A stretch of DNA of 25,031 nucleotides, from positions 1-25,031 of the IMG/VR virus record IMGVR_UViG_3300023443_000876. One strand, written 5' to 3'. Positions within the stretch are counted from its first letter, which is position 1. Each line of letters opens with the position of its first letter. The position numbers and the translations under genes were made by a program. Source of the DNA: a virus. This document shows, piece after piece, positions 1,947 through 10,853 of this stretch. Below the pieces are notes generated by a model. It saw nothing but the letters and a program-made list of their open reading frames with translations. It made no database searches and was not told where the DNA came from.

Positions 1947-2333
1947 ATGAAACAAGAAGTAATGCAACGCAGAAATGACATTTCTCGTCTCATGGCAAAG
2001 TCTGTTGTAAGGCCTGAGGATATTGCCAAGAATTTAAAGATAAATGTAAAAACAGTTTATGAGGATTTTAAATATTTTAAAAATAACTCTAAAAAGTGGT
2101 TATACGGATATGCAAACGAAGGCTATGTGTTTGTCACAAGACAGACAATAGACTCTCTATACGATATTGAGTTAGAGTTACAACAACTCAGGCAAAACGC
2201 CAAAACACAAAACGACAAACTCAAAGTGATTAGAGAACTGCGTGAAACAATCAATACTCGATGGGTAATGCAGGGGGAGGGACCAACCATAATGGCACTA
2301 ATGAAAACTAATGAGCGTAAAATTACCACGTAA
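1947..2333 (+). CDS. Small terminase subunit-like HTH protein (TerS)
   Basis: Residues about 12-46 form a helix-turn-helix (RPEDIAKNLKINVKTVYEDF lies inside it), resembling the N-terminal DNA-binding domain of small terminases. A charged helical, coiled-coil-like segment follows (about 67-102) that would serve oligomerisation, and the tail is short. The 128-residue length and the position directly before the terminase ATPase gene, which it overlaps by 23 nt in another frame, support TerS. TerS recognises viral DNA and stimulates the large subunit. A plain transcription regulator is the main alternative, because the HTH alone is not specific and TerS proteins diverge strongly. Confidence 0.7.
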   Translation: MKQEVMQRRNDISRLMAKSVVRPEDIAKNLKINVKTVYEDFKYFKNNSKKWLYGYANEGYVFVTRQTIDSLYDIELELQQLRQNAKTQNDKLKVIRELRETINTRWVMQGEGPTIMALMKTNERKITT

Positions 2334-3369
2334 ACTTTTACAAATATTACAAAAGCAACAAGAAGAGCAAGATGGTAATAATTTTGACTCAAACTCCCTT
2401 TTAATCCCTCAAGAAATTCTTACAAAAATGAAGAATCTGCCCTTTTGGTGTGGAGATAATACAAAACACAAAGAGAACCCACAGTATTATACCGATTTTT
2501 GCTGTACTCAACATGTAGCAGGATTGCCTGTCCATCCAGCATTACACATTGAAATGCCCCCAACTCCATTCCAACTAGAATTCATAGAGGAGATAATCAA
2601 GGCAGTCACAAAACCCGAGGGTATGGACCAAACAGAGTGGGACAGACTAGCCCACATGTTTCATATTCTAAAGGGAAGGCAGATGGGATTTACAGAATTT
2701 GTATTGAGATTAATATTTCATTTCTGCTTTACCAGGTATGCGGATAATTCTAATATCGCAATAATTGCAGCAGTAAACGGCAATCTTGCTAGAAAGAACC
2801 TAAAACGGTTCATGAGGCTATTTACACATATTCGTAATGTAGTACCTAATGGAATCAAATCAAATATTGTGGAAATATACAATGGCATTCAGGTGGAGGC
2901 ATTCCCTGCATCAGAAGAAGCAATAACTGGATTAACAAAATTTGCAGCAGTATTCAAAGACGAATCAGCCAAATGGAAACTAGTAGATGACTCACCTGTG
3001 TTTAATTCCGTATTGCCCATTATACGTTCCAATGGTGCTGACTTGTATTTGGTATCAACATTCAAAGGTCCAATTAAAACATTTTATAAAATATGGCGAG
3101 ATAAGGATCCCGACTATACATTTTTGGAATATACCATAGAGCGAGCAGTGGGTAATCTTTACACAAAAGAGCAAGTCAATAACATGATGAATGCAAGTAC
3201 AGAAGATCCACAACAAGAATACATGTGCATTCCTACGAGTGGACGAGACTCTATTTTTGGAACAGTTACAAAAGATGACCAGCACGGAATGGATGAATGG
3301 GGTGTAGATGAAGAAGAAGATGATACACCAGAGAAAGAAGATGTAGGGTGGGAAGAGGTAACATCATAA
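2311..3369 (+). CDS. terL: Terminase large subunit, ATPase domain (split gene, part 1)
   Basis: The DNA-packaging motor ATPase. Residues 121-129 (KGRQMGFTE) are the terminase-type Walker A region. The hydrophobic strand before D217-E218 (FAAVFKDE, 211-218) is Walker B with its catalytic glutamate. YLVSTFKG at 246-253 is the coupling motif. An adenine-site glutamine is plausible around PTPFQLEF (85-92). The chain ends with an acidic tail, residues about 325-350, at the point where the nuclease domain normally begins. No nuclease residues are present here. They are in the next ORF, in the -1 frame, overlapping by 22 nt. The two ORFs together would give about 535 residues, a normal TerL length. 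The ATPase assignment is strong; whether a fused form is made is unknown. Confidence 0.88.
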   Translation: MSVKLPRKLLQILQKQQEEQDGNNFDSNSLLIPQEILTKMKNLPFWCGDNTKHKENPQYYTDFCCTQHVAGLPVHPALHIEMPPTPFQLEFIEEIIKAVTKPEGMDQTEWDRLAHMFHILKGRQMGFTEFVLRLIFHFCFTRYADNSNIAIIAAVNGNLARKNLKRFMRLFTHIRNVVPNGIKSNIVEIYNGIQVEAFPASEEAITGLTKFAAVFKDESAKWKLVDDSPVFNSVLPIIRSNGADLYLVSTFKGPIKTFYKIWRDKDPDYTFLEYTIERAVGNLYTKEQVNNMMNASTEDPQQEYMCIPTSGRDSIFGTVTKDDQHGMDEWGVDEEEDDTPEKEDVGWEEVTS

Positions 3370-3917
3370 AGTCTCTAAAGTTATTAATTGGTGATCCTGC
3401 AAAAAGTGGAGATGCGTTTGGTGTATTAGGATTACAGGGAACATGGCCTGAAAGAAAAATCTACATTAGACATGCAAAGCAGTTCTGGAATGAGCCATAT
3501 GGAATAGTTGCAAATCACTTTGTCACACTACAACATAAAGTAAAGCCTGACATGATGATACTAGAAAAGAACTTTGACTATGATGGTATATCAAAGGCAT
3601 TTGCACATTTACCAATTATCTATGTATCAACTACTGGGAATCTCACAGAACAGAATCGTTCCAAAGGATGGGCAGTAGACAAACCATACATGATAGACTG
3701 GCTCAAAACAGAATATACAAGACACACCATCCAATACCCTGCAAACAAATCTGCAGATATGGCAGAGCTGGTAAACCAACAAAATGAGATGGTAGGAATT
3801 ACTTTACCAACAGGGCATGTATCTTATAAGAGACAACGAAATCGTCATGATGATTTGTTTTTATGTAAATTAATTGGATGTAATGCGATTAGAATTTGGT
3901 GGGATCAACAGAGTTAA
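3348..3917 (+). CDS. terL: Terminase large subunit, RNase H-fold nuclease domain (split gene, part 2)
   Basis: The headful-packaging nuclease half of TerL, 189 residues. Metal-binding acidic residues expected of the fold are visible: D16 in LLIGDPAKSGD (with D22), E73 in MMILEKN, and D168/D169 in RHDDLF. This is the D...E...D order of terminase nucleases. The likely start is GTG at 3348, inside the end of the ATPase ORF. Its frame is open only from 3324, so any frameshift fusion must occur between 3324 and 3369. No good slippery heptamer is visible there. Translational coupling to give two interacting polypeptides is therefore as likely as a fused protein or a one-base lesion. The next gene but one is a degenerate copy of this domain. 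Confidence 0.85.
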   Translation: MGRGNIIKSLKLLIGDPAKSGDAFGVLGLQGTWPERKIYIRHAKQFWNEPYGIVANHFVTLQHKVKPDMMILEKNFDYDGISKAFAHLPIIYVSTTGNLTEQNRSKGWAVDKPYMIDWLKTEYTRHTIQYPANKSADMAELVNQQNEMVGITLPTGHVSYKRQRNRHDDLFLCKLIGCNAIRIWWDQQS

Positions 3918-3936: not shown

Positions 3937-4062
3937 ATGAAAAATAATATGAATGATGAAAATAGAATTATGGGAAGATACATACCATTTAATTTTAAAG
4001 CACCCATTCCCCACAAAGCTAATCCAGGTGAAATTATAATAGTAGAATTAAATAATGAATAA
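3937..4062 (+). CDS. 41-residue ORF between the two terminase nuclease copies
   Basis: A small ORF starting at ATG 3937 and ending with TAA at 4060-4062. It overlaps the start of the next gene (4055) by 8 nt. The peptide begins MKNNMNDENRIMGRYIPF and ends GEIIIVELNNE. It is not recognised. The tight overlap with the downstream gene and the TCTTAATAA element just upstream (3918-3926) argue that it is translated, perhaps only to couple translation of the next gene. It fills the only gap in the packaging operon. Confidence 0.5.
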   Translation: MKNNMNDENRIMGRYIPFNFKAPIPHKANPGEIIIVELNNE

Positions 4063-4774
4063 TGATACAATCGTAGCATTCTCTCACTCCAAACATAGAA
4101 ATCAATTTGGAATGGTTGGGATAGAGCTAGATGAAAAGGAAAAAACAGCATATGTAAGACTGGCAAAGCAATGGAGCAGAGATAACCTAAATCAAATACC
4201 ATCAGATGTCAAATCTATATACACAAAGATAAAATGGACTGACACCTTTGCTGATCAACTGATTGGTCAGTCCCTAATTAGAAACATCGAGCATACCGTA
4301 GGCTTTGTAATGCATACCATAACCACCCAGAAAAACCTCAAGGACCCTGAAGATATTGAAAAAATAAAAATAATGGACCAGACAGAAATGACTCAGTTAT
4401 TCTTGTCCCTAAAGCAGGATCATAAAATACAGTTCCCCCCAAACCCAACTGATACCATGAAAAAGCTAATGTCTCAGGTGGAGATGTTCACAGAGTACAC
4501 TACAGAGTCCGGTACCATCTCATATTATGCACCAGGAGATGAGTGGGATAATTTAACTCGAGCATTAATGATTTGTTGTTTTGCAGGAAGACACCACCTA
4601 CAGCATGGGGTCATGCCATTTATAATTCAGAAAGGCGTAACACCAGATAAACCAAAGCATCCATCATATGAAGAGGAATTGTTAGGTGAATTATTTGTAG
4701 ATCATAAGACTAGCTCAAAAATTAAAAACAACATGGATACATACAATATTTTTAAAAGTAGAAGGTATTTCTAA
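4055..4774 (+). CDS. Degenerate paralogue of the terminase nuclease domain
   Basis: This 239-residue protein aligns along its length with the nuclease ORF at 3348-3917. NQFGMVGIELDEKEKTAYVRLAKQW (read as two pieces, residues 16-24 and 25-40) matches DAFGVLGLQG and ERKIYIRHAKQF. The later stretch around IQFPPNPTDTM, LMSQVEMF and GTISYYAP matches IQYPANKSADM, LVNQQNEM and GHVSYKRQ. WDNLTRALMICC matches HDDLFLCKLIGC. The catalytic positions are mostly lost: D16 becomes S10, D22 becomes N16, and E73 falls on Gly/Gln. Only D165 of the final acidic pair remains. A C-terminal extension of about 65 residues is unique to this copy. It probably lacks nuclease activity and may be a structural or regulatory partner of the motor. 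The homology is seen directly; the role is inferred. Confidence 0.72.
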   Translation: MNNDTIVAFSHSKHRNQFGMVGIELDEKEKTAYVRLAKQWSRDNLNQIPSDVKSIYTKIKWTDTFADQLIGQSLIRNIEHTVGFVMHTITTQKNLKDPEDIEKIKIMDQTEMTQLFLSLKQDHKIQFPPNPTDTMKKLMSQVEMFTEYTTESGTISYYAPGDEWDNLTRALMICCFAGRHHLQHGVMPFIIQKGVTPDKPKHPSYEEELLGELFVDHKTSSKIKNNMDTYNIFKSRRYF

Positions 4775-4862: not shown

Positions 4863-6569
4863 ATGATGGGCAAAAACAAAAAACAAGTAAAGCCCTTTGC
4901 AAGATCAGTACCAGCATTAGAGCTTGACCTTGATGTAAAGGCATTTACTGCAGGTCCCCAAAGATTTGCACAAGTTCCTTCTTGGGCAACAACTGGAATG
5001 CGTAAACCAACCACAAGACGAGGGCTTGAAACCAGCAAAGATTCAAAAGCATTAAAGAAAATTGCACCATTCAAAAACCTTACAATATACCCGTCAGTTG
5101 ATCCATCCCTCCCAGAAGAGCGAGCATTATGGAGGGTACTAATGAGAAATAATTGGGCTGTCCTCAAAGCCAATCAAATTTTACAACAACTAACCATACA
5201 AAAATCAACTAGGTCTGTCCTCCCCAGATTAAACCAGGAGATACGAGAAGAAGAGTTAGACACCTGGAGAACTGAAAAGATTGACGTTCCTTTACTAGGT
5301 GAGAAAATGACACCAGATGAAATTAGAATATGGATGGATGAGTACGCCACAACACTGGATTTGGATAGTTTAGTGTATGATGCGTTTCTCTTTGAGCGGG
5401 AACAGGGAAGGACTGCAATTGGAATGTTTCCTGAAACTAGAAATAAAAATGGACAATACGTTTTACCTGTAGCGTTACGATTAATCAGGCCAGACCTACT
5501 AAGAAGGCCTATAGTAAATTTTGATAATGGAGAACTTGTAGGAGTAGAAGTAACAGGACTATCATCAAATGGCTCATTGCTTGATGCTAATCGCTGTATC
5601 TATTTTAATAATTCAAAAAACCTGGAACTCTTTGGGGACTTTTATGGAGTCTCAGCAGTACAAGCCATCGATGACTTGGGGCAGGTACTACTAATCATAT
5701 ATGCAAGAGATTTGATAAATGCTGCAAATAGAACATGGAGGACACCAAACATTTACCAGCATGATTTACCAACCTCAAAATATTCAGAAGCCAAAGCAAT
5801 CCTTGAGGATTTTAATGCAGATATTGCCAATGTTGGAAACGCGGATGTATCAGTACCGCATTCAGTAAGTGTAGTTAGTGGGGCTACTAATTCTGGGAAT
5901 ATTTCAGCTTTATTGGAAATTGAGCGGACATGTATAGAGGGAATTGCTGGGTATAACCACGTTCCATTGTTCCAGTTATCAAAGGGGGTTACTGGAAATA
6001 TGGGAGGAAATGCCAACAGAGAGGAAAATGATTCTCTACTAAATGATGAGATTAAACCATCTCAGGAAAGATATGAAAAGACGTTAGAAAACCAGTTCTA
6101 TGATAGAATATTAGCTATACTATTCATGGTAGAGCCTGAGGATATAAATCAAGTTCCAGTAAAAATTACACAAAACTATGAAAAGCCAGTCTTTGCTACA
6201 GAGATTCCCCCTGAGGAATGGAATATTATGATGCAGCTAGTGGATAATGGATTTACCACAATGGAGTTGGTAATGGAGAGATACGGATTACGTGACATGA
6301 TGAAAGATTCCCCAACTCAGGGAACTGATACATCCCCTACAAGAAAGACATGGGAAAAACAGAATCACTCCACATGGGGGAACAGAGGGAACAGTTGGCA
6401 TACCCCCTCCACATGGGGAAATGACAGGCCAGAACTTGCCAAAAACTGGCACACACATGGAAACCAATGGAGTGAGATTCAACAAAATAAGATAGATGTG
6501 CTAAAGGTAGCAAAGGAGCATCTTGAAATTCAAAACAAAATATCCAAAAAGAAACTATCCCGACAATAA
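4863..6569 (+). CDS. Portal protein
   Basis: The dodecameric portal through which DNA enters the head. The 568-residue length is typical. The call rests on the position after the terminase and before a MuF-like gene, and on portal-like features. Those are an N-terminal clip/wing-type region with a conserved-looking FEREQGRTAIGMF segment, the LRLIRPDLLRRP strand-turn, and a long helical stem region (about 265-300). The stretch KGVTGNMGGNANREENDSLL (about 373-392) is the loop-and-helix region that commonly precedes the portal C-terminal part. The C-terminus carries an unusual Trp/His-rich stretch (W497, W505, W512, W518, W529, W536), followed by a lysine-rich helix. ATG at 4863 is chosen; a second ATG follows at once. 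The transcript is probably leaderless. Confidence 0.82.
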   Translation: MMGKNKKQVKPFARSVPALELDLDVKAFTAGPQRFAQVPSWATTGMRKPTTRRGLETSKDSKALKKIAPFKNLTIYPSVDPSLPEERALWRVLMRNNWAVLKANQILQQLTIQKSTRSVLPRLNQEIREEELDTWRTEKIDVPLLGEKMTPDEIRIWMDEYATTLDLDSLVYDAFLFEREQGRTAIGMFPETRNKNGQYVLPVALRLIRPDLLRRPIVNFDNGELVGVEVTGLSSNGSLLDANRCIYFNNSKNLELFGDFYGVSAVQAIDDLGQVLLIIYARDLINAANRTWRTPNIYQHDLPTSKYSEAKAILEDFNADIANVGNADVSVPHSVSVVSGATNSGNISALLEIERTCIEGIAGYNHVPLFQLSKGVTGNMGGNANREENDSLLNDEIKPSQERYEKTLENQFYDRILAILFMVEPEDINQVPVKITQNYEKPVFATEIPPEEWNIMMQLVDNGFTTMELVMERYGLRDMMKDSPTQGTDTSPTRKTWEKQNHSTWGNRGNSWHTPSTWGNDRPELAKNWHTHGNQWSEIQQNKIDVLKVAKEHLEIQNKISKKKLSRQ

Positions 6570-6576
6570 TAATTAA

Positions 6577-7170
6577 ATGTCAGCCAAAGTAGAAACAGAA
6601 AATGAGCGTTTCATAAAATCATTGTTATCTTCAGGGTTTGCAGTTGGTACGGCATCCCTGGTGTTAAATAATTTATCAGGCAATCAGGGACTCATTAGAA
6701 TTATAGGCTCTGGGACTAATTTCACCCTCTCAGACAGACAGTCAAGTGTATTCACAAAAGCATTAACTGATGCAGGACTCTCAAAAAAACTATCCATAGA
6801 TGTAACTCAATCAGTCCAGCTAGTAGAGTTAAAGAATCCGCCAAATATTCCCAAAGTAAAAGGTATAACTAATTCAGCCTTTACTAATGCTTTAATCTCT
6901 GGGGGACTAGCTGTATCGTTTTCAAAGATACTCACCACTGCACTAAATGATGATGAGCAAATAGTCAGTTTGGTTTCCCAAAAGAAACGCCCAGTAATAT
7001 TCATGACACAGCGAGACAACAAGGTAGATGACATTATCTGTCTTCCCTTAGAGGGAGTAGTGTATTCCATAGATGATGTAAAAAGAATAAAAATTCCCAG
7101 TCAGACTCATCCTAACTGCAGATGTTTTTATCTGGATGGAGTGACAGGTGAGAACCTTGGACAATTTTAA
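6577..7170 (+). CDS. MuF-like head morphogenesis protein
   Basis: The C-terminal signature of the phage Mu gpF / SPP1 gp7 minor head family is clear: R146-D-N-K ... C155 ... then IKIPSQTHPNCRC, with H178, C181 and C183. These proteins bind the portal, are packaged in small numbers, and help start head assembly or DNA ejection. At 197 residues it is short. Before the MuF region, three weakly repeated helical units are visible: FIKSLLSSGFAV (12-23), FTKALTDAGLSK (59-70) and FTNALISGGLAV (102-113). Each is spaced by about 43-47 residues. The gene follows the portal by 7 nt and is certainly co-transcribed with it. Confidence 0.78.
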   Translation: MSAKVETENERFIKSLLSSGFAVGTASLVLNNLSGNQGLIRIIGSGTNFTLSDRQSSVFTKALTDAGLSKKLSIDVTQSVQLVELKNPPNIPKVKGITNSAFTNALISGGLAVSFSKILTTALNDDEQIVSLVSQKKRPVIFMTQRDNKVDDIICLPLEGVVYSIDDVKRIKIPSQTHPNCRCFYLDGVTGENLGQF

Positions 7171-9142: not shown

Positions 9143-9667
9143 AGTTCTGAATCATTTAGCACATCTCCTACTAGACAAATTGAAGCAGGTGACACTCCTG
9201 GTTTCAATGACGACCAAATATCAAGAAATATGGCAGTCGAAAATATTCCAAAAGGAACACCAACTTTTCAAAAAGATGGTGTGATAACTATCACAACAAA
9301 CGGTGACGCAACTGGAAACTTTGCACCATTTGTCCCCATAGAATCTAAAGACAACTCAAATGATGATGATTTAGAAATCCGAGGTGTAGGACCACTACAA
9401 CAAGTGGCACTAGAATTATTCAGTGGAACATTAAACCCTGGCGATTATGCTCAGGTGAATACTTCAGGTTCAGGTGAATTAATTCCTTGGACAAAAGCTG
9501 CTAACGAAAGAAGATATGCTCGTTACTTTGGTAGGGAAGCTGGCGTATTTAGTCGAGACTCTCTAGTAACGCCATTTCCTGAAGATCTTAGTGTTGGTGT
9601 AATTCCAGACCAACCACTCACAGCAGGCGAAATAGGATGGTTCACGTTACTGGAGGCAAGTGATTAA
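9140..9667 (+). CDS. Capsid decoration-type protein
   Basis: A 175-residue, beta-rich protein between scaffold and major capsid genes, the classical place for a head decoration or head-fibre protein. The middle has a segment typical of small beta-tulip/barrel decoration proteins: ALELFSGTLNPGDYAQVNTS (about 94-113), where GDYAQV resembles the GD-V pattern of DUF2190-like decoration proteins. A hydrophobic C-terminal strand GEIGWFTLLEA ends it. Its start overlaps the scaffold stop codon (TAATG) with a good Shine-Dalgarno. I infer that it cements capsomers from outside. An N-terminal capsid accessory domain is the alternative. Confidence 0.6.
   Translation: MSSESFSTSPTRQIEAGDTPGFNDDQISRNMAVENIPKGTPTFQKDGVITITTNGDATGNFAPFVPIESKDNSNDDDLEIRGVGPLQQVALELFSGTLNPGDYAQVNTSGSGELIPWTKAANERRYARYFGREAGVFSRDSLVTPFPEDLSVGVIPDQPLTAGEIGWFTLLEASD
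9650..9661 (+). promoter_or_regulatory. Shine-Dalgarno-containing repeat before the capsid gene
   Basis: CTGGAGGCAAGT is identical to the 12-mer at 9124-9135, though the two are read in different protein frames (LLEASD here, LPGGKF there). It places GGAGG 12 nt before the ATG at 9669 and only 3 nt before a GTG at 9660. This favours the ATG start. Confidence 0.4.
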
Positions 9668-9668
9668 A

Positions 9669-10853
9669 ATGACTAAAATGCGAATGCGTCATGATAATCA
9701 TGGCCAGATGTTTGATCAGTTCTGGATCAATCCAAAAGACAACATTGTATACACAACACTTGAACAGCCAGATCATGGCTTTACAAATGAAATTAATGCA
9801 ACTGCCATATACAACGCAGAGACTGGTTCAAACAATGTTCGTTTAATTGACCAAGCAAGAATAGATGGAACAGACTCTCAAAACTTTAGAGATGGTTTGC
9901 CATCTGCAAGTTTAGATGGTGATCTTACTACTGATTTGGATGAATTTCATTCTCATCTGTCAGGACATAGAGTAAAAGAAGCAGCAATGCTATCCACTGA
10001 TAACCCGGCAGTAAATGTTGTCAGAATTTTCTCACAATTGTATGGTCTTAAAGATAGGGCATATGCAGGTGTAGAACTCATGAAAAGGGTTGCTACTGAA
10101 GAATTAATTTTAAACTTTGATAAAGTAATCAAAATGGAGGGAATGGAACAAATTCCAGAAATGACAATGCCAAGAGTCAAAAGTATAGAGTATGAAAGAC
10201 GACTCTTGGAAACTAACAAGTTTGGCATGTGGATTAGAATTTCTGATGAGTCCATTAGAAAGAACGTACACAATCCGTTCCAAGATTCCGTAACAGTTGC
10301 TGGAACCAAAGTGTTACAACGCAAATCATTTAATGTAGTAACTGCATTAATTGCAGAACTTGACACTATAGCCGGAACTGCATGGGATACATTTGTTGCA
10401 GGAACTGATCGTTCTACAAATGATCCAACTACTGATATCACTAGAATAGTCACACAAAGTATTGAGGGTACTAATGTCGGTGGCAAGTTTGATAGAATAG
10501 GATTACACCAAATAGGTGGAAAAATATACGATACAAACTCTTTCCTCAGAGGTATAGTTAATCCTGTAGATACTACAGAACTAGCTCCTGGAACAAGACC
10601 ATTCAAAGGATTCACCGGAGTAACTGAAGTTAATGACCAGTTCATCACACAAGGAGTAGCACTACTCACAGATGTGGGAAGTGAGGCAACAGGCATTCTA
10701 TTGGAGGGACCAACTAGGATTGCTACCAAAGTAGATGAATTCTTGGCAACTCAAAACTATGCTATACTAGATCATCACTTGGCTGCAGTATTAAACAAAG
10801 TTACAGGTATTCAAATGACTGGTGTATACACGCCATTAGCACCACCATCTTAG
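9669..10853 (+). CDS. Major capsid protein (HK97 fold)
   Basis: The shell protein, 394 residues from ATG 9669; a GTG at 9660 would add three. About 100 polar N-terminal residues (to LDEFHSHLSGHRVKEAAML) may be an arm removed in maturation. HK97-like features follow: a long helical spine region (about 115-160), an E-loop/P-domain stretch with MPRVKSIEYERRLLETNKF, and WIRISDESIRKNVHNPFQDS before an A-domain with many small residues. The end, YAILDHHLAAVLNKVTGIQMTG, is typical of archaeal and phage capsid proteins. It is the last gene of its operon and is followed by a T-rich stretch. Cross-linking residues cannot be judged from sequence alone. Confidence 0.83.
   Translation: MTKMRMRHDNHGQMFDQFWINPKDNIVYTTLEQPDHGFTNEINATAIYNAETGSNNVRLIDQARIDGTDSQNFRDGLPSASLDGDLTTDLDEFHSHLSGHRVKEAAMLSTDNPAVNVVRIFSQLYGLKDRAYAGVELMKRVATEELILNFDKVIKMEGMEQIPEMTMPRVKSIEYERRLLETNKFGMWIRISDESIRKNVHNPFQDSVTVAGTKVLQRKSFNVVTALIAELDTIAGTAWDTFVAGTDRSTNDPTTDITRIVTQSIEGTNVGGKFDRIGLHQIGGKIYDTNSFLRGIVNPVDTTELAPGTRPFKGFTGVTEVNDQFITQGVALLTDVGSEATGILLEGPTRIATKVDEFLATQNYAILDHHLAAVLNKVTGIQMTGVYTPLAPPS

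Follow-up and report, generated by a model that had tools for sequence, protein, structure and literature searches.

In tailed phages, the nuclease domain of the large terminase subunit (TerL; Terminase_6C, as in G20c, P74-26, T4 gp17, SPP1 G2P, P22, and Sf6) has an RNase H-like fold, lies after the ATPase and before the portal gene, and ends in a C-terminal arm. The G20c terminase cannot do without D294, which binds metals A and B, D347, which binds metal B, or D429, which binds metal A; D428 and H427 have assisting roles, D300 is not essential, and the D294N and D429N mutants are inactive (PMC5389553). The nuclease domains of HK97 sit directly under the portal (PMC10359639), and C-terminal arms, which serve or are suggested to serve portal docking in other phages, have been proposed to mediate TerL-portal assembly (PMC5727402). 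In phi29, the C-terminal domain of the gp16 ATPase is a “vestigial nuclease” that has kept the terminase-nuclease fold, lost the catalytic residues including the motif I Asp, and remained in the packaging motor, where it binds DNA (PMC7672431). Among archaeal tailed proviruses, Nvie-Pro1 of Nitrososphaera viennensis (FR725450), whose ATPase shows distant similarity (E 1e-5) to the one described here, encodes a single fused 456-aa TerL, and from TerL to the portal gene its annotation shows no additional nuclease-like gene.

Here, we describe a viral locus in which these functions appear to be distributed differently. The window, meaning the whole stretch of DNA that was analysed, is an entire IMG/VR virus record of 25,031 bases. 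The product of its gene at 4055-4774, hereafter the dead copy, resembles the phage TerL nuclease domain in its predicted fold, its position after the ATPase and before the putative portal gene, its motif II and first motif III acids, and its C-terminal arm. Unlike that domain, it is encoded by a free-standing gene and lacks the metal-A ligands, a second and active nuclease gene coexists with it, and the ATPase is also a separate gene. The phi29 domain is fused to its ATPase, belongs to a pRNA-dependent motor that contains no nuclease, and has a trimmed fold, whereas the dead copy is a separate ORF lying beyond the active nuclease from the ATPase, has a fuller predicted fold, and coexists with a nuclease that has been kept. 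Rfam families have no match anywhere in the window at E <= 0.1.

Organization of the packaging operon

The packaging genes and the residues discussed below are as follows.

1947-2333, plus strand: putative small terminase or helix-turn-helix (HTH) protein, 128 aa, 5′ of the TerL ATPase gene; weak HTH matches only (E 0.05-0.12), role suggested by position
2311-3369, plus strand: free-standing TerL ATPase half, 352 aa (Pfam Terminase_6N, 3.4e-6; phrog_2 terminase large subunit, 1.7e-17)
3348-3917, plus strand: TerL nuclease half (active copy, P0001), 189 aa; catalytic residues invariant in the family, Foldseek matches to terminase nucleases
3393-3395, 3564-3566, and 3846-3854, plus strand: active-copy catalytic residues D16, E73, and H167-D168-D169, respectively, all intact
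3938-4063, plus strand: putative 41-aa ORF read from the sequence; lies in the gap between the two nuclease genes, its 3′ end overlapping the dead-copy start
4055-4774, plus strand: terminase-nuclease paralogue, almost certainly dead (P0002), 239 aa, ATG start; assigned from homology, predicted fold, lost residues, and selection
4082-4084, plus strand: motif I position, Ser10 replacing the essential Asp (G20c D294)
4253-4255, plus strand: retained motif II acid Asp67 (G20c D347 equivalent)
4541-4552, plus strand: motif III, E163-W164-D165-N166 replacing EHDD; G20c H427 and D429 equivalents lost, first Asp kept
4601-4771, plus strand: dead-copy C-terminal arm, residues 183-239, containing EEELLG; mostly low-confidence or disordered, present in single-copy relatives and missing from the active nuclease
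4863-6569, plus strand: putative portal protein, 568 aa, the next gene after the dead copy
6577-7170, plus strand: MuF-like gene (weak family matches)
9660-10853, plus strand: major head protein (phrog_1650, 6e-5)

The ATPase and nuclease thus occupy separate ORFs, in agreement with the split terminase proposed in an earlier note on this DNA. The ATPase half has a deviant Walker A motif, KGRQMGFT, and a Walker B motif of VFKDE. We considered a programmed frameshift that would join ATPase to nuclease and set it aside, as in L004-L006 and other viruses the two ORFs are separated by hundreds of bases that hold further ORFs. In L012, the ATPase itself is found in two overlapping frames (2286-2822 and 2773-3330), reflecting a frameshift, a sequencing error, or a further split. 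The 1947-2333 product has a homologue only in L003.

The 4863-6569 product has no Pfam or PHROG match of its own. We assign it as a putative portal from its position before the MuF-like gene, from synteny, and because L067:5137-6549, an analogous gene, has weak portal matches. On the strand opposite the packaging operon, positions 619-1818 encode a DNA methyltransferase (N6_N4_Mtase, 5.4e-20) whose N-terminal region is weakly ParB-like, and L039 carries a similar-looking gene near its packaging operon. No tRNA was found in the window or in the relatives scanned.

The host is likely archaeal. On the related 47-kb contig of L035 there is a PCNA gene (3.5e-21 with archaeal sliding-clamp models and about 6e-6 with archaeal PCNA structures), which fits the archaeal tailed-virus setting assumed earlier, and the contig of L011 carries an integrase gene whose product is distantly similar to archaeal XerA (1.9e-9). 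This archaeal-type PCNA gene of the L035 contig (L078:2608-3423) has as neighbours an ORF resembling DNA cytosine methylases and one for a primase-polymerase/D5 helicase.

Identity, fold, and active site of the 4055-4774 product

The earlier note had described 4055-4774 as a 239-residue ORF whose product aligns with the 3348-3917 nuclease, and had suggested an RNase H fold for it. The ORF is present, and BLASTP aligns the two proteins over 174 columns at 24% identity (E = 3e-9). Their Smith-Waterman score of 98 compares with a mean of 30.9 for shuffled sequences (sd 4.8, maximum 61, z = 14; 2000 shuffles) and with scores of 26-39 for 12 other window proteins aligned to the dead copy as controls. 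Profile-profile comparison of the two families with hhalign gives a probability of 99.1 and E = 6e-19 over 181 columns. The 4055-4774 product is a paralogue of the 3348-3917 terminase nuclease, and this identity is well supported. Because direct family look-ups with either copy (Pfam, PHROGs, and PDB sequences) returned nothing significant, and the Pfam Terminase_6C profile has no direct match to the dead copy, we established the identity from families gathered in IMG/VR, from predicted structures, and by way of single-copy relatives.

The AlphaFold2 model of the dead copy has a core pLDDT of about 90, with low confidence in the C-terminal residues 185-239. In a Foldseek search of the PDB, 22 of the 24 matches at E <= 1e-3 are terminase large-subunit structures, the best being 5m1f (E 1.1e-6). 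The top 11 are all terminase large subunits or nuclease domains (G20c, P74-26, T4 gp17, RB49, SPP1, and Sf6), and P22 follows closely. The TM-scores, at about 0.5-0.6, are moderate. Matches in a viral structure library are also mostly terminases. The active-copy model is less certain and has terminase nucleases among its best Foldseek matches, and the phiV-1 terminase-Avs3 structure appears among the matches of both copies. The RNase H/terminase-nuclease fold suggested earlier for 4055-4774 is found in its model, and the pairwise and profile matches to the active copy are both significant, so the observation withstands the refutation tests set in the earlier note.

The active copy keeps every G20c-equivalent residue (D16, E73, D169, D168, H167, and D22). 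Throughout the dead family, the D294 position is occupied by Ser, Thr, Ala, or Asn (17/17) and the H427 equivalent is lost (17/17). The D429 position holds Asn, Cys, Gly, Ser, or His in 16 of 17 members and Asp only in L066. The D347 position is Asp or Glu, and the D428 position Asp, in all 17. The dead copy thus retains just one of the three metal-binding catalytic acids, the D347 equivalent. These alignments modify the residue losses reported earlier: the D16 to S10 and D22 to N16 replacements are right, D22 being the equivalent of the non-essential G20c D300 (PMC5389553), while E73 is not lost, as the family alignment places D67 at its position. The change of D169, the second Asp of HDD and equivalent of the essential D429, to N166 had been missed. 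The decisive losses are those of both metal-A ligands, with motif II retained. Since the D294 equivalent is gone from all 17 members and the second metal-A aspartate from 16, catalysis has almost certainly been lost in the 4055-4774 product, although the retained D67, E163, and D165 could bind one metal ion.

Distribution, ancestry, and selection

The earlier note had called for a search for the tandem pair in other viruses. Profile and protein searches of IMG/VR recovered it in 17 distinct viruses including the window, with L010 and L011, which match identically, counted once. Every virus found with an active-copy family member also carries a dead-copy member (17/17), and the split order of ATPase, nuclease, and dead nuclease recurs in all of them. 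Five further viruses (L051/L067, L068, L069, L070, and L071) have a split ATPase and one nuclease ORF with all catalytic residues; this ORF precedes a portal-like gene in four, and L068 ends too early to tell. Where contigs reach that far, the order of ATPase, nuclease, and putative portal is constant in pair viruses and single-copy relatives. The single-copy nucleases match the dead-copy HMM at 1e-28 to 1e-40, and all four tested pass the Pfam Terminase_6C cutoff (L051, 7.9e-6; L068, 1.8e-11; L069, 6.3e-5; L071, 3.6e-8), tying the entire group to the terminase RNase H-like family. Relatives further away have ordinary fused TerLs of 522-536 aa. GenBank phages yielded no match to the dead copy and a chance-level match to the active copy (E = 3), the bacterial and archaeal genomes scanned contain no relative of either, and our search of the open-access literature for a split or pseudo-nuclease terminase found none.

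Other genes interrupt these operons. HNH endonuclease ORFs lie between the active and dead nuclease genes in two viruses (L066:2231-2719, PF13392, 2.6e-12; L022:5592-5996, PF01844, 2.8e-4), and the junctions of the packaging operon look like insertion hot spots. A glycosyltransferase-2-like ORF and a dual-specificity phosphatase ORF lie between ATPase and nuclease in single-copy relatives (L068:3120-3761; L071:7574-7966).

In phylogenetic trees, the active and dead families each form one clade (support 100/100 for both; 98/98 and 100/100 in the rooted tree). With fused TerLs as the root, dead copies and single-copy nucleases fall into one group (99/79) that excludes the active copy, and profile scores place all five single-copy nucleases closer to the dead than to the active family (for example, L068 at 131 versus 78 bits). 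On this rooted tree, the dead copy seems to descend directly from the ancestral single nuclease and not to be a spare copy of 3348-3917, although a sister relation of active and dead copies is not rejected in the AU test (p-AU 0.42). The C-terminal arm follows the same division. Residues after motif III number 43-77 in dead copies, 57-66 in single-copy relatives, and 20-30 in active nucleases; the arm is kept in the dead copy and lost from the active one. Arm sequences vary among dead copies; an [acidic]-LLG-like motif occurs in four of five single-copy proteins and nine of 17 dead copies, more than in shuffled tails.

The dead copy had been called degenerate, a description at odds with its evolution. 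Among the window and L003, L004, L005, and L006, its dN/dS is 0.047-0.078, while the active nuclease has values of 0.11-0.25 and the portal 0.04-0.07 in the same five viruses. It is under strong purifying selection, with a constraint like that of the portal and tighter than that of the active nuclease. A pseudogene is ruled out by these values (0.05-0.08).

The same viruses point to exchange of packaging modules. Between window/L003 and L004-L006, the ATPase differs by a dN of about 0.24 (dS 1.5-1.8), compared with 0.09-0.11 for the nuclease, 0.04-0.08 for the dead copy, and 0.02-0.04 for the portal. The small-terminase-like gene and ATPase of window/L003 (window 1947-3369) have an ancestry different from those of L004-L006, and the downstream genes are close. 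Divergence of the ATPase alongside close nuclease, dead-copy, and portal genes indicates that recombination has taken place between the gene for the ATPase and those for the nucleases, with a probable breakpoint where ATPase and nuclease are split. The cutter would then travel with the dead copy and the portal, while the ATPase is exchangeable. Plain linkage could account for the co-inheritance of dead copy and portal, since the active nuclease gene next to the dead copy is also co-inherited.

Possible roles in the packaging motor

We consider it somewhat more probable than its opposite that 4055-4774 encodes a catalytically dead terminase nuclease domain turned into a separate, essential-looking motor subunit, dividing labour with the cutter. 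A fuller version of this reading, which we hold more tentatively and to which we give a little less than an even chance, divides TerL into an ATPase, a cutter lacking the arm, and, as the third protein, a dead subunit of nuclease fold that makes up a portal-side, DNA-guiding ring, the dead subunit being the ancestral heir and the cutter having been duplicated or acquired. The dead copy would retain the non-catalytic jobs of the TerL C-terminal domain; it may dock on the portal clip via its C-terminal arm, line or grip the DNA path, and hold the ATPase ring and the cutter. The separate ATPase would supply force, and the smaller, arm-less active nuclease would be a recruited cutter, acting in trans at initiation and at headful or end cleavage. 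With the jobs separated in this way, translocation would proceed on a ring unable to cut, and cutting would come from another protein. The earlier proposal of an RNase H-fold “regulator or clamp” in the motor thus holds for fold, paralogy, and probable catalytic loss; for the role it had conjectured, the evidence points more toward a portal-docking, DNA-guiding subunit.

A regulatory partner is a rather unlikely alternative, in which the dead copy would form a heterodimer with the 3348-3917 product and restrain or position the cutter without bearing on the portal or DNA path. The two genes are adjacent, and their stop and start overlap by 4-11 nt in seven of the 17 viruses, which suggests coupled translation and fits the division of labour as well; the active and dead copies are also always found together and share the same predicted fold. 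However, the dead copy is more conserved than the enzyme it would regulate, possesses a C-terminal arm that the enzyme is without, and lies nearer the ancestral single nuclease.

We regard it as quite improbable that the 4055-4774 product is still an active nuclease with a metal site rearranged from D67, E163, and D165. These positions are acidic in all members, and L066 keeps both motif III aspartates. However, the motif I Asp, the residue that spans both metals and that G20c cannot lose (PMC5389553), is missing from all 17 members with no conserved compensating acid near motif I, and E163 and D165 already stand in the EHDD of the single-copy nuclease and were inherited from it, hence they form no new site.

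Less probable again is a role away from the motor, such as luring terminase-recognising host sensors (Avs-like) as a decoy or binding DNA in another capacity. Terminase is a known Avs ligand, and the phiV-1 terminase-Avs3 complex is among the structural matches, but a decoy gene would be expected to be patchy and fast-evolving, whereas this one has a fixed place in the packaging operon, is co-inherited with the portal, and has a portal-like dN/dS. Despite the lost catalytic residues, there is next to no chance that 4055-4774 is a functionless relic, given its low dN/dS, a frame intact in 17/17 viruses, and 41 invariant residues over 14 members.

The docking and translocation work of the TerL nuclease domain has been hard to test apart from cutting, as both jobs reside in one polypeptide. 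Here, evolution appears to have assigned each job to its own gene and to have stripped one of the two of its active site. If the proposed division of labour is true, the docking/translocation, cutting, and ATPase roles would be testable independently, and these viruses would join phi29 as the second case in which a terminase nuclease fold has been retained although catalysis is gone.
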